Source: a virus
Virus record (IMG/VR): IMGVR_UViG_3300021407_000034
Coordinates: 1 to 33,277 of that record
Strand: one strand, 5' to 3'
Length of the DNA stretch: 33,277 nt
Shown: positions 2,524 to 19,465 of the stretch, in pieces
Numbering within the stretch: position 1 is the stretch's first letter
Layout of the letters: each line of letters starts with the position of its first letter
The notes under the pieces: model-generated
The model's input: only the letters and a program-made list of their open reading frames with translations
Databases searched by the model: none
Told to the model about the DNA's origin: nothing
Program-made: the position numbers and the translations under genes

Positions 2524-2552
2524 TTGACAAACGCAAGTTGAAGTGTGACGCT
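2524..2552 (+). promoter_or_regulatory. Repeated promoter-like box, copy 1 (variant TTGACAAACGCAAG)
   Basis: A consensus -35 hexamer TTGACA starts directly after the stop codon of the preceding gene and sits in the conserved TTGACAAACGC context. Seventeen bases later is GACGCT, which differs by one base from the TACGCT found at the same spacing in the copy at 16688. It lies 50 bp ahead of the start at 2574. Confidence 0.5.
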
Positions 2553-2573
2553 AGTCCGATGGAGGTAACTGCC

Positions 2574-2846
2574 ATGGGCACTAGAGAGTCTGATGCGACG
2601 GTGATGTTGGCGTATACCCTGCTTTACTCGGTTGCGGCTGCGCTCGCGATTGTCGCGTGGCTGCTTTATCACGCGGGAGCTGAGACATGGTTGGTGTTGG
2701 CGAAACTGTTTTTGTTCGTATTCCTAGTATGGCTGCTTGTGGTTTCACGGACGTCGCGGGCACGGTGGCCGCTGTATTACCGGGCGACACCGTCAATGTC
2801 GTTGACGGAGATGGTCAGGTATTCGCGCTCGCGCAGACGCGCGTAA
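2574..2846 (+). CDS. Small membrane protein with two predicted spans, 90 aa
   Basis: The start ATG 2574 follows a strong GGAGG site (2561-2565). A short polar N-terminus (MGTRESDATVM) precedes two hydrophobic segments, about residues 11-33 and 38-59, separated by HAGAET. A basic tail rich in Arg and Ser follows. Size and topology would fit a class II holin or a small inner-membrane protein, but no lysis gene is adjacent. The 3' 160 nt overlap the next gene in another frame, so one of the two may be shorter than given. Confidence 0.5.
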   Translation: MGTRESDATVMLAYTLLYSVAAALAIVAWLLYHAGAETWLVLAKLFLFVFLVWLLVVSRTSRARWPLYYRATPSMSLTEMVRYSRSRRRA

Positions 2847-2974
2847 ATTACAGCAGGCGTCGGGGTTGGTGCGTTCGTGCGCGCGATGCCGACCGTCGAA
2901 AGGCGGAGTTCGGGTACGTCGAAGTAGGGAGTGACGAGTGGACGTTCAATCTCCAGTGCCCGCCCAAGTCGTAG
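2687..2974 (+). CDS. Hypothetical SH3-like small protein, 95 aa
   Basis: The start ATG 2687 is preceded by GGGAG about 9 bases upstream. The N-terminal half (GETVFVRIP..., GTVAAVLPGDTVNVVDGDGQ) has the alternating beta pattern and PGD/DGQVF turns of SH3-like barrel proteins. The C-terminal half is basic and then acidic/aromatic. It overlaps the 3' part of the two-span membrane gene by 160 nt in a different frame, which is unusual for this phage. Function unknown. Confidence 0.5.
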   Translation: MVGVGETVFVRIPSMAACGFTDVAGTVAAVLPGDTVNVVDGDGQVFALAQTRVNYSRRRGWCVRARDADRRKAEFGYVEVGSDEWTFNLQCPPKS

Positions 2975-3153
2975 CCGCGCGCCGCGTCGGCCAGATCCTC
3001 GGCGGCTTCACGCAGGGCGTGGGGTTGGCGATGATGTTCGTGTTCTACGGCCCGCTGATCACGGGTGCGGTGATGGTGCTGATGCTATCGTGCTGGTTCA
3101 TCGTCACCCGGCACGCGGTCGAAAGCCACCGACAGGAGCCGAAATGCGAGTAG
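2938..3153 (+). CDS. Small membrane protein, 71 aa
   Basis: GTG start at 2938 with a GGGAG site just upstream, overlapping the previous gene by 37 nt. After a polar N-terminus with an RR pair, residues about 18-55 form one long or two short hydrophobic segments (GGFTQGVGLAMMFVFYGP, then GAVMVLMLSCWFIV). A hydrophilic tail follows. I recognise no family. Confidence 0.55.
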   Translation: MDVQSPVPAQVVAARRVGQILGGFTQGVGLAMMFVFYGPLITGAVMVLMLSCWFIVTRHAVESHRQEPKCE

Positions 3154-3242
3154 TTGCAGGGATTATGCTGGTGCTGTTGATTGCCCTGGTGTGGGCCATA
3201 CACCGACTTCGTACCAACATCAAACACAGGCCCGAAAGATGA
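3144..3242 (+). CDS. Single-span membrane peptide, 32 aa
   Basis: ATG 3144 follows a CAGGAG site. The peptide is one hydrophobic helix (VVAGIMLVLLIALVWAIH) and a basic tail ending HRPER. The stop overlaps the next ATG (ATGA), placing it in the same translationally coupled run. Function unknown. Confidence 0.55.
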   Translation: MRVVAGIMLVLLIALVWAIHRLRTNIKHRPER

Positions 3243-3601
3243 AATTAATTGCACTGTTATTGCTGACGGCGCTGTCGATGACGGCGTCGGCCGTCGAGTC
3301 GATGGCCGGAAACGTGATCATCGGCATCACCGAGTTCAACAGCGTCGGTCAGGGGACAATCACCATCGCGTGGTCACCGATTACCCCGGCCCCGCAAAAC
3401 TATCTCGTGTATCTCAGCGAACCCGGGTACGTGAGCATGTACGAGTACACGGAGCTGCCGGGCACGCAAACGCGATGGACCGTGAACTGGACGGTGCCAC
3501 TCGGCAAAACCCTATGTTTTACGGTAGCCGGTAAGACGTGGGGCGTGGTCGGCGAGCGCGCGGTTCCCGTCTGCCTCAAGATCGTGGCGAGCACTACATG
3601 A
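3239..3601 (+). CDS. Secreted protein with fibronectin-III-like beta domain, 120 aa
   Basis: The ATG at 3239 sits in an ATGA overlap. Residues 1-18 are a signal peptide (MKLIALLLLTALSMTASA). The mature part reads like a single Ig/FnIII beta sandwich: GTITIAWSPITPAPQNYLVY, then a Tyr- and Trp-rich middle and a CFTVAG...VPVCLKI end with two Cys that could pair. Such domains usually bind surfaces or other proteins; here it would act in the periplasm or outside the cell. Codons 3-5 (TTA ATT GCA) carry the half-palindrome that recurs in this phage. Confidence 0.6.
   Translation: MKLIALLLLTALSMTASAVESMAGNVIIGITEFNSVGQGTITIAWSPITPAPQNYLVYLSEPGYVSMYEYTELPGTQTRWTVNWTVPLGKTLCFTVAGKTWGVVGERAVPVCLKIVASTT
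3243..3253. repeat. Half-palindrome AATTAATTGCA in signal-peptide codons
   Basis: One arm and the centre of the TGCAATTAATTGCA palindrome, placed in codons 2-5 (MKLIA) of the secreted protein. The same codon choice occurs at 4091 and 18006. Confidence 0.6.
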
Positions 3602-3819
3602 GCGAGAACGTGATCGGTGGCAGAATTCTCGACAGCTACCACAACGACGTCACGCCGATTGTCGAGGCCCGGGAGCCCGCGCGACGTGCGCGCAAGATCA
3701 TCAGACGTCGTCGGTATCAGCGCCACCAAGCGCGGCTCGGATTCTATCGGCCACGGTTTTCGCACGCCGTGCTATATGGGCCTATGCCGGATTTTACGGA
3801 AGTTACGGAATTCGAATGA
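3598..3819 (+). CDS. Hypothetical basic protein, 73 aa
   Basis: ATGA-coupled to the secreted protein upstream. Residues 25-46 are dense in Arg (EPARRARKIIRRRRYQRHQA), flanked by a polar N-terminus and an aromatic/acidic C-terminus (PMPDFTEVTEFE). The basic patch suggests nucleic-acid or phosphate binding, but no family is evident. Confidence 0.55.
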   Translation: MSENVIGGRILDSYHNDVTPIVEAREPARRARKIIRRRRYQRHQARLGFYRPRFSHAVLYGPMPDFTEVTEFE

Positions 3820-4061
3820 TCAGCGCACCCCGAAGCCTGGGCGCGGGCAAGATCAAACGCATTCACGTCAATAAGCACGTGATCGCAAAGAACTTGAAGC
3901 ACGGCACGGATTTGCCAGCGATCAGCATTCAACACACTGGTGGCCCGACACCCGCGCGCGTAGTCGCGATTCATGGCCCCAGTCTTATGCGTAGCGACAA
4001 GCCCCTGAAATGCGGAGCCCGGGTCTACATCGAAACGACTGCCGAAATCACGTACGAGTAG
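3816..4061 (+). CDS. Hypothetical protein, 81 aa
   Basis: ATGA-coupled to the gene before it. The sequence is a mixed beta-type protein with no membrane segment or Cys motif, containing KIKRIHVNKHVIAKNLKHG and ending in GARVYIETTAEITYE. Family unknown. Confidence 0.55.
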   Translation: MISAPRSLGAGKIKRIHVNKHVIAKNLKHGTDLPAISIQHTGGPTPARVVAIHGPSLMRSDKPLKCGARVYIETTAEITYE

Positions 4062-4084
4062 ATTGGATGTGAGAACTTCAATGG

Positions 4085-4642
4085 ATGAAGTTAATTGCAA
4101 TCCTGCTGTTGGCGTCAGCGCCCGCGTTCTCGAACACCCTGCTTCAGGATACTGCGATCATCGCGTTGCGCGCGGCGCATGATAGCGCGACCGGGACCGT
4201 GGTCGAGCACGGGGGCATGCTCATCAAATCCGGCGACGACTACCGCTTCGTCGAACCCGCGCAAGGCGATGAGACTGGAATTCGCGTCGTAGACTTCAGC
4301 CAGTTGAAGGCTGGCGAACAACTCATCGGCACCTACCACACGCACTTGTGCATGGCCCACTACTACCACGGGCTTTTTTCGAAGCAAGATGTCATCGCCG
4401 CGTACCTTACCGGCGTCCCCGAGTTCATGCTCGATGAGTGCACGGGCGAAGTCCACGAATTCAATAGCCGCGTCGATCACGTGTGGGAGACGGGCGTGCC
4501 CTCGCATATCTTCGGCAAGGACTGCGAGAAGGTCGATATCCTGCTGCCAGTGGGCAGGGTCGTCGGCAACATCGGCGAGACCGAGGTCCTACGCGAAGCC
4601 GTGTACATCGACCCCTGTAAAAAAGATCCACCCGCTGCTTGA
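4085..4642 (+). CDS. Secreted JAMM/DUF4329-like metalloprotease-type protein, 185 aa
   Basis: Residues 1-16 are a signal peptide (MKLIAILLLASAPAFS). A JAMM-type metal site can be read: E41 in VVEHGGMLIK, H85-T-H87 in IGTYHTH, then S99 and D102 in GLFSKQD. This gives E...HxH-x11-S-x2-D, close to the canonical JAMM spacing. JAMM/DUF4329 proteins are zinc-dependent isopeptidases or peptidases, and a secreted form would act in the periplasm or outside. Four Cys in the mature part (88, 119 and two nearer the C-terminus) could form disulfides. The stop overlaps the next promoter box. Catalysis is inferred from the motif only. Confidence 0.65.
   Translation: MKLIAILLLASAPAFSNTLLQDTAIIALRAAHDSATGTVVEHGGMLIKSGDDYRFVEPAQGDETGIRVVDFSQLKAGEQLIGTYHTHLCMAHYYHGLFSKQDVIAAYLTGVPEFMLDECTGEVHEFNSRVDHVWETGVPSHIFGKDCEKVDILLPVGRVVGNIGETEVLREAVYIDPCKKDPPAA
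4091..4100. repeat. Half-palindrome TTAATTGCAA in signal-peptide codons
   Basis: Encodes Leu-Ile-Ala at codons 3-5 of the JAMM-like secreted protein, with the same nucleotide sequence as in the gene at 3239. Confidence 0.6.
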
Positions 4643-4667
4643 CAAACGCTAGCTAGTCGGTTACCGT
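4639..4667 (+). promoter_or_regulatory. Repeated promoter-like box, copy 2
   Basis: TTGACAAACGCTAG with -35 TTGACA (4639-4644), a 17-bp spacer and a -10-like TACCGT (4662-4667). It overlaps the stop codon of the JAMM-like gene. The next ATG (4674) is only 6 bases past the -10, so the transcript would be nearly leaderless. Confidence 0.65.
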
Positions 4668-4673
4668 TTGCGC

Positions 4674-4865
4674 ATGGAGATCGCGGGACACCCTTTTGAT
4701 CGCTACCACGCCCACGAATGGCAGGGGCAGCCGGGACCCGCGTACATCGAATACCTGGGCCTTGGCCATCCCGGCTACCGCCCTGAAACCCTGGAAAAAC
4801 AGAGGAAACGCCATGAGCGCCGACGTCATAAATCTGCATCAGCGGCTGTGGGACAAAGGTCGTAG
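4674..4865 (+). CDS. Hypothetical protein, 63 aa, possibly leaderless
   Basis: The ATG at 4674 has no ribosome site and starts where transcription from the box at 4639 should begin. The product MEIAGHPFDRYHAHEW... has a His/Tyr-rich N-terminal half and a very basic KQRKRHERRRHK stretch near the end. It overlaps the next gene by 53 nt in another frame. Alternatively, its ATGGAGA could be a ribosome-site remnant and the ORF not translated. Confidence 0.4.
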   Translation: MEIAGHPFDRYHAHEWQGQPGPAYIEYLGLGHPGYRPETLEKQRKRHERRRHKSASAAVGQRS

Positions 4866-5004
4866 CGGCGAATTGCCGATTGACACGCAAATCCATTTGC
4901 TGGAAGCTGCGTTCCGCAGACACCGCGAACGCCAGCGCGAGGACGTGGTGGCATTGAATTTGGACAGCTACTGGGAGACAGTGCCTCGGCATGACATCGG
5001 ATGA
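4813..5004 (+). CDS. Hypothetical helical protein, 63 aa
   Basis: ATG 4813 follows an AGAGGAAA site. The sequence (MSADVINLHQRLWDKGRSGE, then AAFRRHRERQRED) is strongly helical and charged. A long upstream extension of the same frame lacks a ribosome site and was not used. Confidence 0.55.
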   Translation: MSADVINLHQRLWDKGRSGELPIDTQIHLLEAAFRRHRERQREDVVALNLDSYWETVPRHDIG

Positions 5005-5159
5005 CTAGGGAGGCGTTATTCGGACTCGGGGTGCTGCTGGGAGTGGCAGTCGGGGGTCTGTTAGCGTTTTTACTGGCGATGTGGTTGGCGAATGCCTACT
5101 ACGAAGACCCGATGCCCACGCATCACTATTACCCCGAATGTTACCAACTCAGGAGATGA
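5001..5159 (+). CDS. Small membrane protein, 52 aa
   Basis: ATGA-coupled to the preceding gene. One Gly/Leu-rich span (LFGLGVLLGVAVGGLLAFLL) is followed by a His/Tyr-rich hydrophilic tail (PMPTHHYYPECY). Function unknown. Confidence 0.6.
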   Translation: MTREALFGLGVLLGVAVGGLLAFLLAMWLANAYYEDPMPTHHYYPECYQLRR

Positions 5160-5160
5160 G

Positions 5161-5310
5161 ATGAAAACCAAGCGCGAAATCGCGACGGTCGTGACCTTTA
5201 CCATCTTGACGTGGCCGGTGATCGTCATCGGTTTCGCGAGCGCGTTCGTGGCACACGCCTGGTGCGTGGGCGTCGAAGCCTACAAAGCGTGTTGGGGGGA
5301 GCCGACGTGA
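5161..5310 (+). CDS. Small membrane protein, 49 aa
   Basis: ATG 5161 follows CAGGAGATGAG. The N-terminal KTKREIA precedes one hydrophobic span (TVVTFTILTWPVIVIGFASA) and a short tail with two Cys. The GTG of the next gene lies inside its last codons. Function unknown. Confidence 0.6.
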   Translation: MKTKREIATVVTFTILTWPVIVIGFASAFVAHAWCVGVEAYKACWGEPT

Positions 5311-6182
5311 GCAAGGAAATCCGCAACGTCATCTCTGAGATCAACGACGTGCGCGTCTGCATCGCGCTCTATGCCATCGTCGATAAGCTGTGGCCAGAGC
5401 CCAAGGTCGAGGGTGCGAAATTCAAGGACGATCCCAGCACCCCGATTTGGGCACGGCTGAACTTACTCAGCCATCGGTTTCCCTACGACAGCAGCGTCGC
5501 GCAGATGCTGGTGATGGCCAGCACCATCGTAAAGCACGCGCCCGGTGGTGAGGGTCCGGTGAAGCGGCCGTTGCCCATGGGGTATTGGGGAAGGCGCATG
5601 TCAATGGCCCGAGACCTGGTGTCAAAGCTGCGTGCTGTCAACTTCGCGGAGTTGGCGAACGACGCCGAAGCGCAGTTCGAGCGCCGCGACATCGAGTTGG
5701 CCGATTTACGCTCGAAGTTGAGCGAAGCCCGTCAGACAGCCGACGACCTCGAACGTACTGTAGATGACTTACGCCGGGGCGCGAAGTTGGACCCGAAGTT
5801 CAAGGAGCTGTTGACGGAGAACGACAACTTGAACCGGAAAATAAAAGACTTGCAGGCGTTCATCGACAACAGTCAGGCTTCCCTCGAATCGGCGCACCGG
5901 GCCAGGGACACTGCCCTCGACGAAGCCGCTGATACACGCCGGTCTCTCGCCAACGTCGTCGAGGCCAATGCCCACGTCAACCGCATGCTGGAGACGATTA
6001 AGGCGTCGCGTCCAGCCACGCCCACGCATATCTGCGTTCTCTGTCACGCGGGGTGGATCGAGTTGCCGGACGCTCGCGGGTGGACGCTATGGAGCACGAC
6101 CTGTGGCCCCTGCTGCGACAACCCGCCAAAAGATTTGTGGGAACGCGTGATCAAACCAATTCGAGCATCAGAGAGGATTTGA
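5307..6182 (+). CDS. Coiled-coil protein with C-terminal zinc-ribbon, 291 aa
   Basis: GTG start at 5307 (GTGA overlap) after GGGGGGAGCC. Residues 1-125 are a globular helical region; about 130-235 is a long heptad-rich coiled coil (QFERRDIELADLRSKLSEAR, ENDNLNRKIKDLQAF). The C-terminus has two Cys pairs, CVLC and CGPCC, about 25 residues apart, consistent with one zinc site. It is the largest gene in the first accessory block and could be a scaffold- or adaptor-like protein. No specific family recognised. Confidence 0.7.
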   Translation: MSKEIRNVISEINDVRVCIALYAIVDKLWPEPKVEGAKFKDDPSTPIWARLNLLSHRFPYDSSVAQMLVMASTIVKHAPGGEGPVKRPLPMGYWGRRMSMARDLVSKLRAVNFAELANDAEAQFERRDIELADLRSKLSEARQTADDLERTVDDLRRGAKLDPKFKELLTENDNLNRKIKDLQAFIDNSQASLESAHRARDTALDEAADTRRSLANVVEANAHVNRMLETIKASRPATPTHICVLCHAGWIELPDARGWTLWSTTCGPCCDNPPKDLWERVIKPIRASERI

Positions 6183-6184
6183 AA

Positions 6185-6373
6185 ATGGATTATCTCAAGA
6201 ACTTGATCGTGGGCGAAGACGGCCAGATCCAGAACCAACACCAGATCCAAGTGCAGACACAGACGAATACTGTGCAGGCACCGGAGATCGACCCCGGCCA
6301 AGGGGTGGCCGCGATCACGTTGCTGGCCGGGGGCCTAGCCGTGATTCTGGGCCGCAAACGCAAGCGTGCTTGA
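6185..6373 (+). CDS. Small protein with PEP-CTERM-like tail anchor, 62 aa
   Basis: ATG 6185 follows an AGAGGA site. After a Gln-rich hydrophilic half (GQIQNQHQIQVQTQTNTVQ) comes APEIDPGQG, one hydrophobic span (VAAITLLAGGLAVILG) and a terminal RKRKRA. The order PE-motif, span, basic cluster is that of exosortase PEP-CTERM sorting signals. No N-terminal signal peptide is visible, so it may only be a tail-anchored peptide that resembles them. Confidence 0.55.
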   Translation: MDYLKNLIVGEDGQIQNQHQIQVQTQTNTVQAPEIDPGQGVAAITLLAGGLAVILGRKRKRA

Positions 6374-6689
6374 CATACGCAAACTCGCGGCGACCGTCCT
6401 CAAAGTCTCACGCGAGATGGGGGGCGACCGCATTGAGACCAAAAATCAACTTGAACTTGCTGCCGGTCTCTTGCTAGAGTTGGCGGGCGACCCCAAACCT
6501 GCCGAGAGGCTGCCGGTTTCAGCTTCGCCTACGAAGGCCACGACAGAGGCTGTTAACTCGGCAGGTGCGGGGCCGCGACTTATTCTGAGTCTTGACGAGA
6601 CCCCGCTGGCGCTGCGCGAGGGCGCGCGCTACGTGATTCGTGAAGAAGCGATTGACGATACCGACTACACCCGCCCCGACCTGGAGTAA
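6366..6689 (+). CDS. Hypothetical protein, 107 aa
   Basis: GTG start at 6366 overlapping the previous gene by 8 nt; its ribosome site is weak. The first 40 residues are helical (KLAATVLKVSREMGG, NQLELAAGLLLELAG), followed by a Pro/Ala/Thr linker and an acidic C-terminus. Unknown family. Confidence 0.5.
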   Translation: MLDIRKLAATVLKVSREMGGDRIETKNQLELAAGLLLELAGDPKPAERLPVSASPTKATTEAVNSAGAGPRLILSLDETPLALREGARYVIREEAIDDTDYTRPDLE

Positions 6690-6692
6690 ATT

Positions 6693-7634
6693 GTGAAGCG
6701 ATTGATATTAATTGCAGCGCTCGCGCTGTGTTCGACCAGCGCATTCGCCTGGGACTGTTCGATTTGGACCTCGAACGTACCCGGCATGGAGTGCTACAAA
6801 CCCCCGACCGATCCCGGAGCCAGTGCCAATGCCAACGCGACCTCGAACCAAAGCCAAGGCCAAACTCAGGGTCAAGGACAAGCGCAGATTGCTAAAGGCG
6901 GCAACGCGACTTCTGCGGCGACCGGGGGCACAGCTACCGCAGGCGGTGGTGCTGTTACTGGGTCTGGAAATTCGACGACCACCAACACCAATACTGCGCA
7001 AGGGGGAACAGGTGGTGCTGGTGGGAATTCTCACCAAGGGCAAAACCAGAGTGCGACTGCGAGCAATACAGGCAACAGTCAAATCAGTTCTAGTTACGTC
7101 GCCGGAAGCGCACCGGGAGTGGTGCTCCCCAACCAGCTCATCCTCGGCTGCGGTAGTGCGGGCTCTGCGGGAGGCTCGAATGTACATGGTGCAGTAGCCA
7201 TGGGATTTGGGTGGACGACCAAAGACTGCTACGACTACATCGACGCCCAAGCCAATTTGGCAGTCGGCGACTACCAGACTGCTTGCGAGATCCTGCACTC
7301 AAATCCCGCCACCGAGCGCGCGCGGAGGCGCGGAGCGAAGATCGCAGACTGCGCGTTACTCGTCCAACGCGTGGAATACGTTGACCAATGCGGACCCCAG
7401 TGCAACGCCGAAGTCCTGTTGAGAATCGAGCACGCGATAGCCGAGTACATTGAGACGCATCCGACCCCCGAGTGCCCGAAACCCAAACCCCATCACTCAC
7501 ACGTAACGTGCAAAATGCAGCCGGTTATTAACGTGCCCCCGGCAACCGTCGTGCAGCCGTCGAAGATTGATGTGGACGTCAACGTCAAACAAGACCGCCG
7601 CACGCCGGGCCTCGACGCGCCGCCGCCGCGATGA
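6693..7634 (+). CDS. Secreted Gln/Asn/Gly/Thr-rich low-complexity protein with Cys-rich C-terminal domain, 313 aa
   Basis: GTG start at 6693, eight bases after GGAG. Residues 1-19 are a signal peptide (MKRLILIAALALCSTSAFA). About residues 42-140 are a disordered stretch of Gln, Asn, Gly, Thr and Ser (SNQSQGQTQGQGQAQ and similar). A globular part follows (GVVLPNQLILGCGSAGSAGG, then helical segments with several Cys), ending in a Pro/His-rich tail. The architecture fits an exported surface or periplasmic protein; no function can be assigned. TTAATTGCA lies in codons 6-8. Confidence 0.65.
   Translation: MKRLILIAALALCSTSAFAWDCSIWTSNVPGMECYKPPTDPGASANANATSNQSQGQTQGQGQAQIAKGGNATSAATGGTATAGGGAVTGSGNSTTTNTNTAQGGTGGAGGNSHQGQNQSATASNTGNSQISSSYVAGSAPGVVLPNQLILGCGSAGSAGGSNVHGAVAMGFGWTTKDCYDYIDAQANLAVGDYQTACEILHSNPATERARRRGAKIADCALLVQRVEYVDQCGPQCNAEVLLRIEHAIAEYIETHPTPECPKPKPHHSHVTCKMQPVINVPPATVVQPSKIDVDVNVKQDRRTPGLDAPPPR
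6708..6716. repeat. Half-palindrome TTAATTGCA in signal-peptide codons
   Basis: Encodes Leu-Ile-Ala in the signal peptide of the low-complexity secreted protein. Confidence 0.55.
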
Positions 7635-7762
7635 CGCGCATGATTGAGATAGGGGTGACGGTTGCCCTCAGCCTGGGCTTTGCCATTGCCATGTGGCGGC
7701 ACGATTACGGCGTCGCGACGTTGTGTGGGTTCGGGCTCGTGATACTGGCGTTCCTGGTGTGA
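7631..7762 (+). CDS. Small two-span membrane peptide, 43 aa
   Basis: ATGA overlap with the secreted protein. Two hydrophobic stretches (IEIGVTVALSLGFAIAMW and VATLCGFGLVILAFLV) are split by RHDYG. It ends GTGTGA, which sets the start of the next gene. Function unknown. Confidence 0.55.
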   Translation: MTRMIEIGVTVALSLGFAIAMWRHDYGVATLCGFGLVILAFLV

Positions 7763-8046
7763 TTAATCCCGTATGGCAGCGGAGATTCGAGCGGTTTCAT
7801 GCCGCCAATCCCCAGGTCTATGAGGCGTTCGTCGAGGCCGCGCGCACGCTCAAGGCGCGGGGCTACGTCAGATACTCATCAGTTACCATATTCTGTAAAA
7901 TACGATATGACCGTGACGTTTCGACAGACGGGCATCGCTACAAACTCAATCAGAACTTCCAGCCGTCTTACGCGCGCCTGGCAATGGTCAGGGAAGCCGA
8001 CCTCAAAGACTTTTTCCCGACACGTGAAAGACTTGACAAACGCTAA
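7759..8046 (+). CDS. Conserved phage hypothetical protein (VWxRFERFHAxNP family), 95 aa
   Basis: GTG 7759 in a GTGA overlap. The sequence VWQRRFERFHAANPQVYEAF, then YSSVTIFCKIRYDRDV, KLNQNFQPSYARL and DFFPTRERL matches a protein type I recall from many phages and prophages. No function is established to my knowledge. Its last codons overlap the promoter-like box at 8033. Confidence 0.7.
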   Translation: MINPVWQRRFERFHAANPQVYEAFVEAARTLKARGYVRYSSVTIFCKIRYDRDVSTDGHRYKLNQNFQPSYARLAMVREADLKDFFPTRERLDKR

Positions 8047-8061
8047 CTGATGTCGTAGCCT
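8033..8061 (+). promoter_or_regulatory. Repeated promoter-like box, copy 3
   Basis: TTGACAAACGCTAA with -35 TTGACA (8033-8038), a 17-bp spacer and TAGCCT (8056-8061) as -10. It begins inside the 3' end of the upstream gene and lies 31 bp before the start at 8093. Confidence 0.7.
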
Positions 8062-8071
8062 TGGGTTGAAG

Positions 8072-8080
8072 TTAATTGCA
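8072..8080. repeat. Half-palindrome TTAATTGCA in a leader
   Basis: Lies between the promoter box and the start at 8093 and runs straight into the ATGGAGACG ribosome-site leader. It is noncoding if the 8093 start is right. Confidence 0.55.
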
Positions 8081-8092
8081 TGGAGACGGGCG

Positions 8093-8305
8093 ATGATTCT
8101 CGAAGGCATTACACGACACGGGAAAAACCGGGTCCGGGAACAGGGCGCGGAATGGCGCGTTATCCAGATCGCGGTCGGTGTCCAGTTCAGTGCCGAGCGC
8201 GGACCCTGGTTCCTCCTGCAATCTGTCAAATCCCCGCAGCACATGCGCTGGGTTCACGATAAACACGACGAGCACTTCCGCATCGTCAAACGCGAGGCCG
8301 CATGA
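8093..8305 (+). CDS. Hypothetical protein, 70 aa
   Basis: The start ATG 8093 is six bases after GGAGA. A longer form from TTG 8066 would swallow the leader and is less likely. The product (MILEGITRHGKNRVREQG, then FLLQSVKSPQHMRWVHDKHD) looks like a compact alpha/beta protein rich in His and Trp near the end. Family unknown. Confidence 0.6.
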   Translation: MILEGITRHGKNRVREQGAEWRVIQIAVGVQFSAERGPWFLLQSVKSPQHMRWVHDKHDEHFRIVKREAA

Positions 8306-8460
8306 ACAAGTCACTCATGGATCAGTTGGCGGCGTTGACCGCTGCCCAGCAGTTTGAATACCGGATGGCGCGCGAGAGTGGTGCCAGTGTCGCGGCGGCG
8401 ATTGAAGCCGCGCTCAAGTCCTCACGCACCCAGGATCGGGCATGCGCAAGCGCTGCATAA
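8302..8460 (+). CDS. Hypothetical helical protein, 52 aa
   Basis: ATGA-coupled. Ala-rich helical sequence (QLAALTAAQQFEYRMARESG, ASVAAAIEAALKSS). Its 3' end overlaps the next gene by 19 nt. No family recognised. Confidence 0.5.
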   Translation: MNKSLMDQLAALTAAQQFEYRMARESGASVAAAIEAALKSSRTQDRACASAA

Positions 8461-12064: not shown

Positions 12065-12225
12065 TGCTGTGGTTGGCGGTGTTGGTCCGAGGACTCGCGC
12101 GAACCCGCGCCAGCCGCTGCCGATACCTGGACTTCGACCTCAAGCGCGTCGGCGAATCCTGGCAGCCAGCGGCGATGTGCATTCTCAGAAGCGGCCACGA
12201 CGGAGGTCATGTGTATGAGTATTGA
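12064..12225 (+). CDS. Hypothetical protein, 53 aa
   Basis: The ATG shares its A with the preceding TGA. Basic, with two Cys (SRCRYLDFDLKRVGESWQ, AAMCILRSGHDGGHVYEY). It overlaps the next gene by 11 nt. Unknown. Confidence 0.4.
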   Translation: MLWLAVLVRGLARTRASRCRYLDFDLKRVGESWQPAAMCILRSGHDGGHVYEY

Positions 12226-13678: not shown

Positions 13679-13832
13679 CGGGTACAGCGAAATAAACTGC
13701 AATTGTTGCCACATTGTGCTGGGCTGGTCGAGATGGTCGAGAGGGATGCTCCCGCACATGCTGTGCGAAACCTGTTATCAAATGACGGTTGTCGAGGACG
13801 ACTCACAATCCAGCGGAGGCGAGAAGCCGTGA
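13671..13832 (+). CDS. Zinc-finger-like microprotein, 53 aa
   Basis: GTG 13671 within the end of the previous gene, preceded by GGAGGAACTAAGC. CNCCHIVLGW and CETCYQM form a C4-type pair. It ends SSGGEKP in another copy of the AGCGGAGG junction. Confidence 0.5.
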   Translation: MSSGYSEINCNCCHIVLGWSRWSRGMLPHMLCETCYQMTVVEDDSQSSGGEKP

Positions 13833-14044
13833 TTTGTCAGTACTGTAAAGAGGACTATGAAGATCGGCCGTCTGCAGCCAAGCTGCATAACAAGGCGTCT
13901 TGGTCATTGGTTATGCCGGATTGCATCAGATTCCCTTGCACGTGTCTCCCACATCAGGGGCCTTTCCATGTTGAGAGTTGCCCAAGACGGACTTATTGGG
14001 ATCGTGAGCTGAATCGTAGTTTAGGAGGCGATGGGCATGGATGA
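13829..14044 (+). CDS. Zinc-finger-like microprotein, 71 aa
   Basis: GTG 13829 in GTGA overlap. CQYCKEDYED at the start, then FPCTCLPHQGPFHVESC. No family assigned. Confidence 0.5.
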   Translation: MICQYCKEDYEDRPSAAKLHNKASWSLVMPDCIRFPCTCLPHQGPFHVESCPRRTYWDRELNRSLGGDGHG

Positions 14045-14252
14045 AATCTGCATCACATGCCGGTATCCAAAGAGCCAGCACAGGGCTATGGGGACGCCGC
14101 TTAGGTTCTGGTGTCCGCCACGACAGACAGAATTCTCGCCGTGTCAGCATAAGAACCGACAAGGGTGGGGCTCGTTCTGTAGCGACGGCACGAGCGATGG
14201 TCGTTCTACCTGCCTAGATTGCGGCCATGTAATCGAATGGAAGCCCACGTGA
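14037..14252 (+). CDS. Zinc-finger-like microprotein, 71 aa
   Basis: ATG 14037 is preferred over 14031: AGGAGG lies 8 bases before it but only 2 before 14031. CITCRYPKSQHRAMG and CLDCGHVIEW form two Cys pairs, with further Cys and His between. Last clearly AT-richer gene of the island. Confidence 0.55.
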   Translation: MDEICITCRYPKSQHRAMGTPLRFWCPPRQTEFSPCQHKNRQGWGSFCSDGTSDGRSTCLDCGHVIEWKPT

Positions 14253-14449
14253 ATCTGCCCGATGACCTCGTCGAGCGCCTGTATCGGCACCTGAGTGCTT
14301 GGGGTAATCCAGATGCCTATCGCGGGCCGAGGACCGGCGGCGTGCTTCAAGGGTGTCCGCGTGGGGCTCCGCCTACGCCAGCGAGAATGGCAGCGATTCA
14401 CAGACTCATGGCCAAACAACTTCGAGACGCAATGGACGACGCCACATGA
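14249..14449 (+). CDS. Hypothetical protein, 66 aa
   Basis: GTG 14249 in GTGA overlap; ATG 14237 upstream is an alternative. LPDDLVERLYRHLSAWGNPD, then a Gly/Pro loop and a helix (ARMAAIHRLMAKQLRDAM). Unknown. Confidence 0.5.
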   Translation: MNLPDDLVERLYRHLSAWGNPDAYRGPRTGGVLQGCPRGAPPTPARMAAIHRLMAKQLRDAMDDAT

Positions 14450-14601
14450 AGCGATTACGTAGATGGCTGTTTCGATGGTGCTTGCGTCACGAGACGGTGT
14501 CGGAGTGGGTGGACGATGTCCTCATCCCCGAGATCCGTCGCGCGCACTCATTCAAGACCGAATCCACGGGTGGCGCGAATCCGATCACCGGTGGCATGTG
14601 A
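14446..14601 (+). CDS. Small basic protein, 51 aa
   Basis: ATGA-coupled. MKRLRRWLFRWCLRHETVSE is a basic amphipathic N-terminus. It ends ...GGM inside the first copy of a 16-bp repeat. Confidence 0.45.
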   Translation: MKRLRRWLFRWCLRHETVSEWVDDVLIPEIRRAHSFKTESTGGANPITGGM

Positions 14602-14602
14602 A
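14587..14602 (+). repeat. Direct repeat ACCGGTGGCATGTGAA, copy 1
   Basis: Exact 16-bp repeat of 14700-14715. Each copy holds the stop of one small gene and the GTG start of the next (catGTGaa). Confidence 0.65.
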
Positions 14603-14714
14603 CGACGACAACGACGGCCGCGCGTGGCTCGTGTTCTTCATTTACGTGCTGGTGGTGGCGACGATCATCGCCGTCGGCTCGTTGCTGTCAAAGTCTCCTA
14701 CCGGTGGCATGTGA
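14598..14714 (+). CDS. Single-span membrane peptide, 38 aa
   Basis: GTG 14598 in GTGA overlap. Acidic start MNDDNDGR, one span (WLVFFIYVLVVATIIAVGSL), end SPTGGM in the second repeat copy. Confidence 0.5.
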   Translation: MNDDNDGRAWLVFFIYVLVVATIIAVGSLLSKSPTGGM

Positions 14715-14715
14715 A
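14700..14715 (+). repeat. Direct repeat ACCGGTGGCATGTGAA, copy 2
   Basis: Second exact copy, 113 bp after the first, at the end of the membrane peptide gene. Confidence 0.65.
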
Positions 14716-14773
14716 ATATGAACGCCGGGTCATTACCTACTTCTTGAGTGAAGTGTGGGCGTGGTGGGGTTAG
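14711..14773 (+). CDS. Possible 20-aa peptide
   Basis: GTG 14711 in a GTGA overlap opens MKYERRVITYFLSEVWAWWG. Only the coupling pattern and the repeat context support it; it may be untranslated. Confidence 0.2.
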   Translation: MKYERRVITYFLSEVWAWWG

Positions 14774-14776
14774 GCT
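14761..14776 (+). promoter_or_regulatory. Possible G-rich promoter-like element
   Basis: GTGGTGGGGT followed by TAGGCT resembles the motif found before the protease gene (21003) and the last gene (32464). It is 131 bp ahead of 14908. The rest of the 14774-14907 gap shows only a weak TTAGACT and a ribosome site (CCAGGAG). Confidence 0.25.
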
Positions 14777-14907
14777 AGTCCAGCCAGCCACGATAAAATT
14801 AGCCCGGTGTGATTATCCCCGCAGATCGCCGACAGGCAGCGGTTCTGTACTTCCACCGGGAGACCCGCAAGTGTTAGACTCCGGCCTTCCTCACCAGGAG
14901 ATCGACC

Positions 14908-15543
14908 ATGAAAAATTTGTTAGTCAAAGCGTTTGTTGCGGCCAGCTTGCTGGTGTTCGCGGGCGCGACCTTTGCGCAAGCCGCTCCCGCACTCCAAGGC
15001 ACCGTCACCTTAACCGCAGTCCCGACTTCGGCCAAGGGCAGCGTCGCCGCAGTCCTGACGTGGTCAACGACGCCCAACGCCAACGGCGTCGCCGCGTCGA
15101 GCTGCACCGCGAGCAACGGCTGGACCGGGACCCTCGCGACTTCCGGTACACAGACCGAGCCCGTGACCACGGTCACGACCACGTACTCGATCACCTGCAC
15201 CTGGAACGACTTGACAGCGGCCATGGTCTGGGTCAATCCGACCAAAGACAGCTCTGGGGCGACGTTGACGGATTTGACGGGTAACAACGTCTACACGGCG
15301 ACGTCGGCCACCGGACCCTGGACATTGGCCAAGGCCCTGACGCCAGCCGTTACCAGCTACCTGTTGACGGGATTGCCGGTCGGCACGAACTACGTCGAGG
15401 TCACGGCAGTGTCCGCGTCAGAGGGCGAGGGTTCGGCTTCGAACGTCGGCAGCAAAGTCAATGGTCCGGCGACGGCCTCGACCACGACCGTGGTCACGGT
15501 GATTGCAGTTCCCTTGGGTCCGAGCACCTTAGTCATCAAATGA
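14908..15543 (+). CDS. Secreted Thr/Ser/Ala-rich beta protein, 211 aa
   Basis: ATG 14908 follows CAGGAGATCGACC. The signal peptide is residues 1-26 (MKNLLVKAFVAASLLVFAGA, ending AQA). The mature part reads as two Ig/FnIII-like beta sandwiches: VTLTAVPTSAKGSVAAVLTW..., two Cys in SSCTASNGW/SITCTW, then YLLTGLPVGTNYVEVTAVSA, a typical FnIII G-strand end. It directly precedes and overlaps the MuF-like gene by 4 nt. An exported protein inside the head operon is unusual; it might decorate virions or the cell surface. Confidence 0.65.
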   Translation: MKNLLVKAFVAASLLVFAGATFAQAAPALQGTVTLTAVPTSAKGSVAAVLTWSTTPNANGVAASSCTASNGWTGTLATSGTQTEPVTTVTTTYSITCTWNDLTAAMVWVNPTKDSSGATLTDLTGNNVYTATSATGPWTLAKALTPAVTSYLLTGLPVGTNYVEVTAVSASEGEGSASNVGSKVNGPATASTTTVVTVIAVPLGPSTLVIK

Positions 15544-16670
15544 AGATTGGACACCGCGCCTTCCTCGACATCGAGCATGCGACAGCGCAGCCGGTGGTCG
15601 AGGCTTGGCGCAAGTACTTTTTGGGGATCGAGCACAACCTCAAGCGTGCAATTAATGTCAAAAATTGGACATTAGCCGGGTCCATTGTCGATTCCATCAA
15701 CACCGAGCACCTGGTCCTGGACCACGCCAAGCGCACGAACTTGTTGGCGACCGCCGCGCTGTTGCTCGGCGTCTCGCGGGTGCGCGAGATCCGCGACTAT
15801 CGGCTCAGCCCCGACAACGTCAGATCCGTGGGTAACGGCGTCACACAGTGGGGCTTTGTCGTGGGCCGGAACCTGGCGGCGACCGTGCGCAAGCGCCTAC
15901 ACGTCAAGATCGCGGCCATTGAACACGGGGTCAGGCAGAAGCCGCAGATCATCAAAGACGAGATCGAGCAAGAGCTGCAAACCGAGTCCCCCGAGATTTG
16001 GATGGAGGTCGAGGACCTGATGGAAGACGCCACGGAGTTCGGGGTGTCGATGTCCACGCTCGCCGCGAGCCTACTGACATCCCGGCTCTCGAACTACGGC
16101 GCGTTGAGCACGATGTACAGTGCAGGCGCCGAGCGCTACATGATCAGTGCGATCCTCGACGACAACACCTGCGACGTATGCGAGGCCCTAGATGGTCAAA
16201 TATTCCCGGTCGCCGACGGCGTCCGCCAAGCCACCGCCGTCATGGATGCCGAGGACCCAGACAGTCTCGCCGACATCGCGCCTTGGCCGGATCAAGACGA
16301 GGACAGTGTCAATTCTATACAGGACGCCGATGCTCAGGACCTGGTTGACGCTGGCCTACAACTGCCGCCGTACCATCCTTTTTGCCGGTGTATTACAGTG
16401 GATGTGGATGACGAAGAAGTGGCCGACGACAGCGCGAGTGCCGATTCCGCCACCGAAGAAGCGGAGACCGATGCCCCCGACTTAAGCGCGTCGGTGCTTG
16501 CGACGCTTTTGGGGTTTGCGACGGGGATCGGGGTCGGGGTAGCGCTCGGCGGCGGTGACCAGGAGCTGGAAGCTGCCGTAGATCAGGGCGAAGACCAGGA
16601 TGCCTACGACGAGGGTGAACCGGCCCAGCAACCCAAGAAGCGCAAGAAGCCGGTCGATCACACTCTGTAG
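15540..16670 (+). CDS. MuF/SPP1 gp7-like minor head protein, 376 aa
   Basis: ATGA-coupled to the secreted gene. The body is helical. At residues 197-225 comes the MuF signature AERYMISAILDDNTCDVCEA with C211xxC214 and DGQIFPV, completed by LPPYHPFCRC (275-284). This Cys/His arrangement marks MuF head-morphogenesis proteins, which sit at the portal and can be ejected with DNA. The C-terminus adds an acidic linker, a hydrophobic Gly/Ala stretch (SASVLATLLGFATGIGVGVA) and a basic KKRKK tail, which are extra to a minimal MuF. It lies 13.8 kb downstream of the portal gene rather than next to it. A diverged palindrome is at 15647. Confidence 0.8.
   Translation: MKIGHRAFLDIEHATAQPVVEAWRKYFLGIEHNLKRAINVKNWTLAGSIVDSINTEHLVLDHAKRTNLLATAALLLGVSRVREIRDYRLSPDNVRSVGNGVTQWGFVVGRNLAATVRKRLHVKIAAIEHGVRQKPQIIKDEIEQELQTESPEIWMEVEDLMEDATEFGVSMSTLAASLLTSRLSNYGALSTMYSAGAERYMISAILDDNTCDVCEALDGQIFPVADGVRQATAVMDAEDPDSLADIAPWPDQDEDSVNSIQDADAQDLVDAGLQLPPYHPFCRCITVDVDDEEVADDSASADSATEEAETDAPDLSASVLATLLGFATGIGVGVALGGGDQELEAAVDQGEDQDAYDEGEPAQQPKKRKKPVDHTL
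15647..15660. repeat. Palindrome variant TGCAATTAATGTCA
   Basis: Twelve of 14 bases match TGCAATTAATTGCA. It lies in the MuF-like gene and is read as GCA-ATT-AAT, the same frame as the copy at 1897. Confidence 0.45.
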
Positions 16671-16687
16671 TAACATAACGCATCCCT

Positions 16688-16716
16688 TTGACAAACGCTA
16701 ACTGGAGAGGTACGCT
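16688..16716 (+). promoter_or_regulatory. Repeated promoter-like box, copy 5
   Basis: TTGACAAACGCTAA, 17-bp spacer, then TACGCT (16711-16716). It is the only box lying wholly between genes here; downstream is a CATAGTAGA stretch also seen after the copy at 18497, then GAGGAG and the ATG at 16752. Confidence 0.7.
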
Positions 16717-16751
16717 ACAGCATAGTAGACCTTTCAACTGAGGAGTGTGTC

Positions 16752-17111
16752 ATGAAATTGCGACAACTGTTGATACCGATTGGGATGGTGGTGATGATGA
16801 TCGTGGCCACGGGTCCGGCGCGCGCCGCAGGGCCGCTGGCAGATGCCCTCGACGACTACGACTTCGCCAAGAAGGTGCTGGTGTCTCACGTCAATCTCAG
16901 GGACCGCGCGTGGACGTCGAACGTCAACGCCATGGACCGAGCCGAGTTCTGTAGCGCCTACCACCGCGTGATCCGTGCGTTCTTCAACATGCGCGACAGC
17001 GACGGCTACACGGCGTGGTTGAGCAAGACCCTGGGCTCAGCTTTCGACCTGGACTACGTCAATCAAGGCAGTGTCGAAGTTTACATATGCCATAGTTCAG
17101 GCGGCTATTGA
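16752..17111 (+). CDS. Secreted hypothetical protein, 119 aa
   Basis: ATG 16752 follows TGAGGAGTGTGTC. The signal peptide is about residues 1-25 (MKLRQLLIPIGMVVMMIVAT, ending ARA). The mature part is helical with two Cys (EFCSAYHRVIRAFFNMRDSD and YICHSSGGY). No family recognised; probably periplasmic. Confidence 0.6.
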   Translation: MKLRQLLIPIGMVVMMIVATGPARAAGPLADALDDYDFAKKVLVSHVNLRDRAWTSNVNAMDRAEFCSAYHRVIRAFFNMRDSDGYTAWLSKTLGSAFDLDYVNQGSVEVYICHSSGGY

Positions 17112-17119
17112 CAGGATGT

Positions 17120-17167
17120 TTGACAAACGCTAAACTGAAGCCGAATCGAAACAGCATGGAGACGAAA
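17120..17167 (+). promoter_or_regulatory. Repeated box copy 6 plus ATGGAGA leader
   Basis: TTTGACAAACGCTAAA at 17119-17134 but no clear TANNNT at 16-18 bp (17 bp gives GAATCG). The leader ACAGCATGGAGACGAAA follows, with the SAS-like ribosome site shared with 18560, 18882 and 19496. It could be a weaker promoter or an operator site. Confidence 0.5.
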
Positions 17168-17506
17168 ATGAATGTAGCGAAAGAGATCCTGGCCCAGCTC
17201 GGCGGCAACAAGTTTTGCGCGATGACCGGGGCCAAGCAGTTTGTGGGCACGGCCAACGAGCTGCGGTTCAAGTTACCGGGAGGCGGTGGTTTCGCGACCT
17301 CCGGCATCAACTACGTCGTCGTGCGCCTGGAAGCCAGCGACACCTACACCGTCGAGTTCTACCGCGTGCGCGCGATGAAGATGACTTTAGTCAGCAAACA
17401 CCAGGACGTTTACAACGACGCGCTCCAGAGCGTGTTCACGATGGCCACGGGCCTGTACACGAACCTGGGGAAGATTGTGATCAATGGAGGCCAGTTATCG
17501 GCTTGA
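17168..17506 (+). CDS. Conserved phage/plasmid hypothetical protein (AKEILAQLGGNKF family), 112 aa
   Basis: ATG 17168 is chosen, 7 bases after GGAGA; the in-frame ATG at 17156 overlaps that ribosome site. NVAKEILAQLGGNKFCAMTG, then NELRFKLPGGGGFATSGINY and DTYTVEFYRVRAM match a small protein I recall from many phages and plasmids. Its function is unknown to me. Confidence 0.7.
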   Translation: MNVAKEILAQLGGNKFCAMTGAKQFVGTANELRFKLPGGGGFATSGINYVVVRLEASDTYTVEFYRVRAMKMTLVSKHQDVYNDALQSVFTMATGLYTNLGKIVINGGQLSA

Positions 17507-17519
17507 TGAGGAGATTGAG

Positions 17520-17675
17520 ATGAGTAGCAGCAGATGGTTTTGCGGTTGGTTCGTGTATCGGGTAGGCAAGAACTACTACGCGACCAAGGCCGGGGCCAGC
17601 AGATTGACAGCATCCAGCAACTTCGGAATACGTCGGCAGATCGTTGCCCGGCGTCGGGAGGAATGCCTTGCCTAA
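17520..17675 (+). CDS. Small basic protein, 51 aa
   Basis: ATG 17520 after GAGGAGATTGAG. SSSRWFCGWFVYRVGKNYYA then ASSNFGIRRQIVARRREE. Aromatic N-terminus and basic C-terminal helix; unknown. Confidence 0.5.
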   Translation: MSSSRWFCGWFVYRVGKNYYATKAGASRLTASSNFGIRRQIVARRREECLA

Positions 17676-17859
17676 CAACACCTTCAAGGGCTGGGAGGTC
17701 GTGTATAACGGCTTCGCGCCGATCACCGGTCGCTACAAAGCCCGACGCCACGGCGTGACGATGTGCGCGGGTACTCGCGCGGGCCTGGAGTCGATGATCA
17801 CCAAGCGCAACCAAGACGAGCGCGAACGCCTTCACCTAGAAGCCGGACACCGACCATGA
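17668..17859 (+). CDS. Hypothetical protein with TTG start, 63 aa
   Basis: TTG 17668 is 6 bases after GGGAGGA and overlaps the previous gene by 8 nt; no ATG in this frame fits. PNNTFKGWEVVYNGFAPITG, RYKARRHGVTMCAGTRAGLE and a basic helix suggest a small alpha/beta protein. Unknown. Confidence 0.5.
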   Translation: MPNNTFKGWEVVYNGFAPITGRYKARRHGVTMCAGTRAGLESMITKRNQDERERLHLEAGHRP

Positions 17860-17996
17860 AAATCGTCATCTATCACGGCATCGAATGGGGCAGCCTCGTC
17901 GAGCGCGGCTGGGTCACTCACGAAGTCAGCGAGCCCTTCAACGGCGTTCGCATGGCCACCATGGTCTATGTGCCTCGTGGCTATTGGCGGATGTGA
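17856..17996 (+). CDS. Hypothetical protein, 46 aa
   Basis: ATGA-coupled. MKIVIYHGIEWGSLVERGWV then GVRMATMVYVPRGYWRM reads like a small beta protein. Unknown. Confidence 0.5.
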   Translation: MKIVIYHGIEWGSLVERGWVTHEVSEPFNGVRMATMVYVPRGYWRM

Positions 17997-18460
17997 AAGT
18001 CGTGAAATTAATTGCACTTCTGGCCGTAGTCTTGGTGTCCGTATCACATGCTGGCGTCCAGCAACCGGCAACCGATCCCGTCGTGTGCCTGGCGCGGAAC
18101 ATCTACTTCGAGGCGCAGGGCGAGGGCTACGAAGGCCGAGTCGCCGTCGCCCAGGTCACGATCAACCGCGCCATCACCATCGACCGCGTCTGCGATACCG
18201 TGTACTTCAAGAAGGTCAACGGCGCGGGTCACAAGGTCGCTGCGTTTTCATGGACCCTGGGCGCAGCCTGGCGCGCACGCGGGCCGATCAACGCCCGCGT
18301 CATGGATCAGTGTCAGGCCATTGCCCGCGCCGTGCTGGCGGGCGATATACGCGGGCATCTGGCGAACAACGTCACCTACTACCACACTCTAGGTTGCAAC
18401 CCAGGGTGGCACCACCACTTCGTCTGCCGCATCGGCAACCACCTGTTTTACTCGGGGTGA
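17993..18460 (+). CDS. Secreted SleB/CwlJ-type cell-wall hydrolase (Hydrolase_2), 155 aa
   Basis: GTG 17993 in GTGA overlap; a second GTG at 18002 is possible. The signal peptide is about residues 1-20 (VKVVKLIALLAVVLVSVSHA). The domain starts CLARNIYFEAQGEGYEGRVA, with the catalytic-type Glu at E40 in YFEAxGE, followed by VAQVTINRA, FSWTLG, AIARAVLAG, NVTYYHT, NPGW and IGNHLFY, all in SleB order. These enzymes cleave peptidoglycan glycan strands. With a Sec signal it could be the phage endolysin needing no holin channel, or a virion/periplasmic muralytic enzyme. No spanin pair or certain holin is adjacent. Confidence 0.8.
   Translation: MKVVKLIALLAVVLVSVSHAGVQQPATDPVVCLARNIYFEAQGEGYEGRVAVAQVTINRAITIDRVCDTVYFKKVNGAGHKVAAFSWTLGAAWRARGPINARVMDQCQAIARAVLAGDIRGHLANNVTYYHTLGCNPGWHHHFVCRIGNHLFYSG
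18006..18016. repeat. Half-palindrome AATTAATTGCA in signal-peptide codons
   Basis: Encodes LIA in the SleB-type signal peptide with the same bases as at 3243. Confidence 0.6.
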
Positions 18461-18496
18461 CATAATCCTGGGCACGATCAAAACTGTGAACTAGGT

Positions 18497-18526
18497 TTGA
18501 CAAACGCTAATTGACTGTGGCATAGT
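18497..18526 (+). promoter_or_regulatory. Repeated promoter-like box, copy 7
   Basis: TTTGACAAACGCTAATTG with -35 at 18497-18502. The best -10 is CATAGT (18521-18526) after 18 bp, a weaker fit than other copies. GTGAACTAGG upstream and the CAGCATGGAGATGGAAATG leader downstream are shared with the copy at 19433. Confidence 0.55.
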
Positions 18527-18559
18527 AGAGCCGTGGTCAGAAACAGCATGGAGATGGAA

Positions 18560-18772
18560 ATGAAGAACTGGGAAATTGAGATCATCAAGCACGGTGCCCG
18601 CTACTGGGGCTTCGTGGTTCGGAACCCAGAAGGCGGCAGCTACGGCAGCCACCGGCAGTCGATGATCGCTGCTAGGACTGAAGCCTTCCGCAGCGTTCCC
18701 CACGGCGCGAACTTTTCGCTCGTGATCAACGGCAAGACCATGGTGTCAGCCAGTCAGGAGTCAGCGTCATGA
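18560..18772 (+). CDS. Hypothetical protein, 70 aa
   Basis: ATG 18560, six bases after GGAG, is preferred over in-frame ATGs 18548 and 18554 that overlap the ribosome site. MKNWEIEIIKHGARYWGFVV then GSYGSHRQSMIAARTEAFRS is a small alpha/beta protein. Unknown. Confidence 0.6.
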   Translation: MKNWEIEIIKHGARYWGFVVRNPEGGSYGSHRQSMIAARTEAFRSVPHGANFSLVINGKTMVSASQESAS

Positions 18773-18867
18773 GCGCCGAAGTCCTGGTGTTTCGGTTTCC
18801 TGCCTACGCCTGCGCCTTGAGCCTCGCGTATGCGCTGTGGACCGTCGTCAAGTGTCTTGTGTTTTAA
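18769..18867 (+). CDS. Single-span membrane peptide, 32 aa
   Basis: ATGA-coupled. MSAEVLVFRFPAYACALSLA then YALWTVVKCLVF is hydrophobic throughout. The leader of the next gene starts at its stop codon. Confidence 0.45.
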   Translation: MSAEVLVFRFPAYACALSLAYALWTVVKCLVF

Positions 18868-18881
18868 GCATGGAGATGAAA

Positions 18882-19238
18882 ATGGAAAGACAATCATTTG
18901 CAGAGGCCGTGGCCGCGTTTTTGGCCTACGCCAGCAACGACTACCACGTGCAGTGGAAAGGTCACAACGCCAGCTTCGAGGTCGTCGTCGAGAAGGCCGG
19001 ACGCCGGTACACTCGCGTGATCCACCAGGAGCGGGACGCCAACGGCAAAGCCTGCCATCGCGGTTCCCACAGCTTTATCGTGATGGAGGACTACTTGACT
19101 CCCCAGGGCCTCAGCCTCAAGCAGGGCGACGTCCTCAAGTGTGCGAGCTGGAAGGCACCGGCCATGAATTTCGTGCGCTGCAACGTCTTCAACCAAGCCA
19201 GTTTCAAGGGTCATGTGCAGTGGACGGGCGTGTCATGA
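18882..19238 (+). CDS. Hypothetical protein, 118 aa
   Basis: ATG 18882 after AGCATGGAGATGAAA, the shared leader, here without a TTGACA box. SFAEAVAAFLAYASNDYHVQ, a beta-rich middle (HNASFEVVVEKAGRRYTRVI) and CASWKAPAMNFVRCNVFNQA. Could be a small enzyme-like fold, but no motif is diagnostic. Confidence 0.6.
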   Translation: MERQSFAEAVAAFLAYASNDYHVQWKGHNASFEVVVEKAGRRYTRVIHQERDANGKACHRGSHSFIVMEDYLTPQGLSLKQGDVLKCASWKAPAMNFVRCNVFNQASFKGHVQWTGVS

Positions 19239-19465
19239 TCCGCGTGTACTTCGGCAAGGCCGGAAGCGTGGAGTGCGTCTGCCACGAGTACGGCGACGGC
19301 TATCCGTGCGGGCCGCATCTGTGCTGCCAGCATAACGGCCAGAGCCAGTCGTCGCCGTGCGTCATCACGCGCACACGCGCGACCTGGGACGCGATTCGCG
19401 CTGCGCACATCAAAAAATGTGAACTGGATCGTTTGACAAACGCTAATTGTGGTGTTACTGTATAG
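19235..19465 (+). CDS. Cys-rich hypothetical protein, 76 aa
   Basis: ATGA-coupled. VECVCHEYGDGYPCGPHLCC gives five Cys and His in a row typical of metal-binding knuckles, with two later Cys. The last residues (LTNANCGVTV) come from the promoter box at 19433 being read as coding. Confidence 0.5.
   Translation: MIRVYFGKAGSVECVCHEYGDGYPCGPHLCCQHNGQSQSSPCVITRTRATWDAIRAAHIKKCELDRLTNANCGVTV
19433..19461 (+). promoter_or_regulatory. Repeated promoter-like box, copy 8
   Basis: TTTGACAAACGCTAATTG, -35 19433-19438, 17-bp spacer, TACTGT (19456-19461). It overlaps the 3' end of the preceding gene. The leader AATAGCATGGAGACGGAA leads to ATG 19496. Confidence 0.75.

Follow-up and report, generated by a model that had tools for sequence, protein, structure and literature searches.

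A repeated promoter-like box with a lengthened -35 region in a tailed-phage genome fragment and its relatives

Several phages carry many copies of one short regulatory sequence. In the accessible part of PMC2988021 the early promoters of phage T4 are described as numerous copies of a single sigma-70 promoter, which has a consensus reaching beyond the -35 and -10 hexamers and serves early genes, and the T4 middle promoters as a conserved element at about -30 (the MotA box, with sigma appropriation) joined to a host -10. Asymmetric 13-14-mers, oriented with transcription and located in promoters and short intergenic gaps, are reported for Cluster A mycobacteriophages such as L5 (PMC9283540, available in part), and more than 30 dispersed 17-bp dyad repeats, about a third of them in genes, for the Cluster O phage Corndog (PMC4351075, likewise available in part). 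Here we describe a box, TTGACAAACGCTAA, repeated in the virus record IMGVR_UViG_3300021407_000034. The entire IMG/VR record of 33,277 bp was analysed and is called the window. The copies of the box probably form one promoter class, and they are accompanied by a second dispersed repeat, the palindrome TGCAA-N4-TTGCA.

The traits listed for T4 early promoters are shared by the box, as far as its presumed timing goes, but those of T4 contain UP and TGn elements in addition and match the -10 excellently, whereas the box has an extra block directly downstream of the -35 and its -10 is weak. A conserved element near -30 with a host-type -10 is common to the box and the T4 middle promoters; in the latter, however, the MotA box replaces the -35, whereas here TTGACA is intact. 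Overlap with a TTGACA -35 is a further feature of the sites in L5. Asymmetry and a single orientation relative to transcription are found in the box as in the Cluster A sites, but many of the latter lie outside promoters and nearly all box copies are promoter-like. It is the palindrome, not the box, that recalls the Corndog repeats, which differ from it in sequence, length and phage group.

Eight copies of the box, six exact, one with one mismatch and one with two, were found on the plus strand of the window, all with TTGACA intact (Table 1). With up to three mismatches allowed the window contained 12 matches, far above the level in 100 dinucleotide shuffles (mean 1.75, maximum 8, none reaching 12). 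The four further matches (6370, 25259 on the minus strand, 29008 and 31821) lack both the 10-mer TTGACAAACG and a good -10 at the right place, and do not look like members of the set. TANNNT follows five of the eight copies with spacers of 17, 17, 16, 17 and 17 bp, within the 16-18 bp that separate the -35 and -10 of sigma-70-type promoters. Both the eight same-strand copies and the five hexamers had been reported in a first-pass annotation of this DNA, and both were recovered. That the copies share a strand is weak evidence alone, since all 56 predicted genes of the window lie on that strand. A generic promoter scan of positions 1-20000 gave 6 promoter-like sites against 6.3 in shuffles, and because it shows no excess the case rests on the box and not on generic promoter scores. 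No Rfam match was found in the window.

According to a family scan, the capsid, portal, MuF and protease families of the window are those of tailed phages. Among the matches listed, the isolated phages closest in their capsid are Stenotrophomonas DLP_3/DLP_5 (DLP3 and DLP5), Rhizobium RHph_TM16 (TM16) and Vibrio phages, at about 48-54% amino acid identity. A 'box plus leader' pattern, applied to viral contigs, led to three further records. The last 1,284 bp of one of them (G001; IMG/VR 3300021420_000075, 41,551 bp) are identical to positions 1-1284 of the window, and because of this identity G001 is, judged by its sequence, the adjoining piece, either from this phage itself or from one of its strains. 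The other two, G2 (31,282 bp) and G3 (13,889 bp), are relatives with 63-80% identity to G001 in matched stretches. A looser pattern yielded three more contigs, of which only L239 (G004) resembles a relative; the own group thus consists of the window, G001, G2, G3 and G004. The single match in genome contigs, in a Bacteroidota metagenome-assembled genome, was rejected as it looks like chance: with up to two mismatches there were 9 matches against 16 for the control.

For the promoter geometry every reading-strand TTGACAAACG was collected, which gave 26 boxes (8 in the window, 10 in G001, 3 in G2 and 5 in G3). Since these sites were picked by an exact 10-mer, the invariance of the first ten columns was not counted as evidence. 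Conservation extends from TTGACA to the thirteenth base, then falls and returns only as the -10: at columns 23, 24 and 28 (counted from 0), which correspond to a 17-bp spacer, T, A and T occur in 18, 24 and 20 of the 26 boxes (naive binomial tails 2e-7, 1e-14 and 2e-9). About three boxes have no plausible -10. Columns 10-12 (C, A or T, A) played no part in the selection and are invariant in all 26, above any -10 column. In the same four records TTGACA continues into AACGC in 26 of 52 same-strand hexamers but in none of the 21 on the opposite strand, and 20 of the 26 boxes start outside predicted genes, while 83% of the sequence is predicted to be coding. Taking into account the fixed -10 distance and the linkage of TTGACA to AACGC, the box appears to be a promoter element that reaches beyond the -35 hexamer, and its copies are very probably promoters rather than pure protein sites. 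In a leave-one-out test with a weight matrix the 26 boxes scored 14-40; five other sites scored at least 11 (window 6370 and 29008, G001 32749 and 35064, G2 25664), compared with 0, 0, 1, 0 and 1 in shuffles. A start codon preceded by a Shine-Dalgarno (SD) sequence and opening a reading frame of at least 30 codons lies within 130 bp downstream of 21 of the 26 boxes, as against 31% of random positions. By the gene model, the box overlaps an upstream stop codon in four of the 26, where one of its frames, (x)-D-K-R-stop, ends the upstream gene; a stop-codon or peptide role was rejected because exact copies also occur outside genes.

The boxes of the window precede small genes set between portal, MuF and protease, and none stands before these three genes or the capsid gene, as had been noted in the first-pass annotation. 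Its statement that all eight lie before small genes held for six by the SD-plus-start test; the copies at 4639 and 10143 failed, though open reading frames (ORFs) start at 4668 and 10195. The proposal that sequence conserved well beyond the -35 would drive the accessory genes of the window is supported at the level of sequence. The ten boxes of G001 precede non-structural genes: a gene of 153 codons that follows a DnaB-like one (located by comparison with DLP5), a regulator of the MerR family at 10306-10734 (Pfam PF00376, 3e-10), a gene resembling the TM16 pyruvate phosphate dikinase (a putative label, by position and sequence), a gene for a 631-amino-acid protein with no match in the phage collection, and small genes. 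The first 23 kb of G2, with genes that are tail-type or lysis-type by size and order only, contain no box. Because of these two observations the box looks like a general non-structural (early-type) promoter of the phage and not the private regulon of a structural region; the earlier idea of a separate regulon embedded there was too narrow. The blocks of small genes at 1767-15540 and 16670-21053 separate portal, MuF and protease in the window, unlike in DLP5 and TM16, where the head genes are close together.

Conservation was followed with the pattern TTGACRAACG-N12..14-TANNNT (-10 at 16-18 bp) in 60 records, taken from the own group, from two isolated phages and from the longer capsid/terminase relatives, of which not all were included. 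The core with its -10 recurs in 13 of the first 30 records and 3 of the other 30 (16 of the 60), with 61 matches against 1 for the reversed control; outside the five-record own group it was found in 11 of 55. Record G014 has an altered form, TTGACGAACGG, with a -10 and a TTGGAG leader, and in G016 the bases after AACG are loose. The relative L174 has its own form, TTGACGAACG(G/C), with a conserved leader similar to ACACCACAACC (1457, 1720, 4402, 6369, 6879, 11446 and 11965). A direct repeat, TTAACATAATGC, is clustered beside TTGACAAACGCAAG boxes in L134 (1100-1362, 4000-4027) and L135 (162-474, 1568-1670). Sequence-string searches returned no phage paper on the box among the literature matches listed, nor was there a promoter study of Delepquintavirus/DLP5 phages among them; two papers on intergenic motifs contained nothing resembling the box in the passages covered.

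The palindrome TGCAA-N4-TTGCA surfaced in de novo k-mer counting. Exact copies number 5 in the window, 4 in G001, 4 in G2, 2 in G3, 31 in DLP5 and 16 in TM16 (100 kb), where shuffled sequences had a mean of at most 0.2 each, and they lie both inside and between genes. Some relatives have other palindromes (TCCAA-N4-TTGGA in L140, L147 and L154; GCACTTAAGTGC in L158), while 25 unrelated contigs had nothing comparable, with top counts of 1-3, near shuffles. On these counts it is the palindrome, not the box, that has a stoperator-type distribution. DLP5 was recovered as a phagemid (PMC7326821, available in part), and its TGCAATCAATTGCA sites are those concerned by a stoperator or operator reading. 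The features of the window are collected in Table 1. Leaders similar to that at 19476-19500 were also found at 17148-17172, 18540-18564 and 18862-18886; the last of these GCATGGAGA-type leaders, before gene 18882, has no promoter box upstream.

Table 1. Box copies, associated promoter elements and palindromes in the window
Feature	Position	Strand	Remark
Box variant TTGACAAACGCAAG, two mismatches	2524-2537	+	poor -10, GACGCT, at 2547-2552
SD-preceded ATG	50 bp past start of 2524 box	+	opens 90-codon ORF
Box TTGACAAACGCTAG, one mismatch	4639-4652	+	TAG of box ends upstream 111-codon open frame
-10 TACCGT, spacer 17 bp	4662-4667	+	pairs with 4639 box
Box, exact	8033-8046	+	
-10 TAGCCT, spacer 17 bp	8056-8061	+	pairs with 8033 box
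Box, exact	10143-10156	+	TAA of box is stop codon of predicted gene 9965-10156
-10 TAAGGT, spacer 16 bp	10165-10170	+	pairs with 10143 box
Box, exact	16688-16701	+	directly past MuF gene (15540-16670)
-10 TACGCT, spacer 17 bp	16711-16716	+	pairs with 16688 box
Second TTGACA	17108, 12 bp upstream of 17120 box	+	pairs with TAAACT (17131-17136, inside box), 17 bp
Box, exact	17120-17133	+	GAATCG; no good -10 at standard distance
Box, exact	18497-18510	+	
-10 CATAGT, spacer 18 bp, TG before	18521-18526	+	pairs with 18497 box
Box, exact	19433-19446	+	
-10 TACTGT, spacer 17 bp	19456-19461	+	pairs with 19433 box
Conserved leader with SD, GCATGGAGA..ATG	19476-19500	+	
TGCAA-N4-TTGCA, exact	1897, 10216, 20769, 25636, 28416		
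Palindrome variant TGAAATTAATTGCA	3240, 18003		

From the copies, their fixed geometry, their placement before genes and their conservation we infer how the box would work, its transcription, polymerase, timing and second reader included. The copies would constitute one promoter class read by the host housekeeping (sigma-70-type) RNA polymerase, with TTGACA as the -35, TANNNT as the -10 after 17 bp, a transcript start about 7 bp further on and, before the gene, a short leader that carries a GGAG ribosome site. This promoter would be reused along the genome for genes of the replication side and of regulation and for small accessory ones, among them the blocks between portal, MuF and protease. 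The bases AACGCWA(A) directly downstream of the -35 are probably under selection; their first two A's may reflect a general preference of such promoters, and CGCWA may be the mark of a second reader such as a repressor or activator of the phage, sitting at about -29 to -22. As a whole we regard this explanation as likely. For CGCWA we lean towards a second reader, a contact of RNA polymerase being a serious competitor: the free columns C-W-A are invariant, unlike those of the -10.

Several observations weigh against this explanation or parts of it. The -10 is weak, misplaced or absent in 3 to 6 of the 26 boxes, and 5 of the 26 failed the ribosome-site test. Two of the nearest isolated phages, DLP5 and TM16, have no match in the TTGACRAACG plus -10 search. 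DLP5 has instead CTTGC-type -35s with similar -10s (TATTCT, TACGAT) and a CAATGGAGTGA leader; 13 such leaders were seen in this phage (L243/L244; e.g. 29112, 48735 and 85569), most of them behind CTTGC-type -35/TATTCT-type -10 promoters. As regards the second reader, an AA behind TTGACA is a general trait: in 116 other viral contigs it was found at 34 of 71 sites with a strong -10 but at 62 of 707 lacking a -10; these are the contigs holding the exact 14-mer, which was masked for the count, and having been collected in this way they are not a random sample. In sequence terms CGCWA, not AA, is the special part of the box. No cognate protein was found among the candidates covered, sigma region 4 and the MerR-like family. 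The Sigma70_r4 domain was absent from all 10 phage records searched and matched in 14 of 14 control genomes; on this ground a phage sigma factor as the reader was rejected for these records. The MerR-like family, phrog_19880, is conserved in 14 of 26 records and is present in records with and without boxes, so that it is not tied to the box. The MerR-like protein of G001 corresponds to gp059 of DLP5, and a search with the protein for relatives gave no match beyond G001 itself.

The absence of a phage sigma region 4 would equally suit RNA polymerase reading the whole box alone, as an 'extended -35' fitted to the host sigma factor in the manner of strong early phage promoters. The enrichment of TTGACAA before strong -10s in the other viral contigs, where 4 of 125 promoter-like sites continue with AACG, speaks for it as well, and the extra consensus of the T4 early promoters is thought to suit the host polymerase (PMC2988021, in its accessible part). 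We place this alternative a little short of an even chance, since within the 26 boxes C-W-A varies less than the -10, and since the sequence that follows AACG is a different one in G014 and loose in G016, a pattern that a co-evolving reader would be expected to produce.

That the box is an operator or stoperator, at which a repressor bound to the asymmetric 14-mer blocks initiation and elongation in the lysogen as in Cluster A mycobacteriophages, we consider quite unlikely. The likeness drawn in the first-pass annotation stands in so far as the box is asymmetric, oriented with transcription, located at gene junctions and in some cases overlaps the upstream stop codon, and the relatives DLP3 and DLP5 are described as temperate (PMC7326821, in its accessible part). 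It fails in that most boxes are promoter-like, with a -10 at a fixed distance, unlike elongation-blocking sites, and that the wider distribution already belongs to the separate dispersed palindrome. No repressor of the Cluster A type, a monomeric two-domain immunity protein, came to light, although no search aimed at that family was made. Recent duplication of promoter-leader cassettes by recombination, with the conservation reflecting recent copying, could account for the 73% identity between window 19431-19521 and G001 23030-23121 across promoter, leader and gene start, but it is very improbable, as conservation falls off abruptly at the borders of the box and the box is kept in relatives only 63-80% identical in matched stretches; the lack of long flanks common to most copies also counts against it.

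The reading preferred here is that of a repeated phage promoter in which the -35 is lengthened by about eight fixed bases and which is kept in related phages. It is conceivable, though rather doubtful, that two codes operate at once: a phage protein would read CGCWA beside the intact -35, and the genome-wide palindrome (other palindromes in some relatives) would act either as a stoperator or in the manner of KorB/ParB operators in a plasmid prophage, together forming an unrecognised lysogeny or timing system of Delepquintavirus-like phages. For these little-studied siphophages of about 80-120 kb the box would provide a promoter map and hence an operon map. CGCWA beside an intact -35 would be a sharp, testable sequence for finding a new phage regulator, and the palindrome may hint at how plasmid-persisting relatives such as DLP5 silence their genes.

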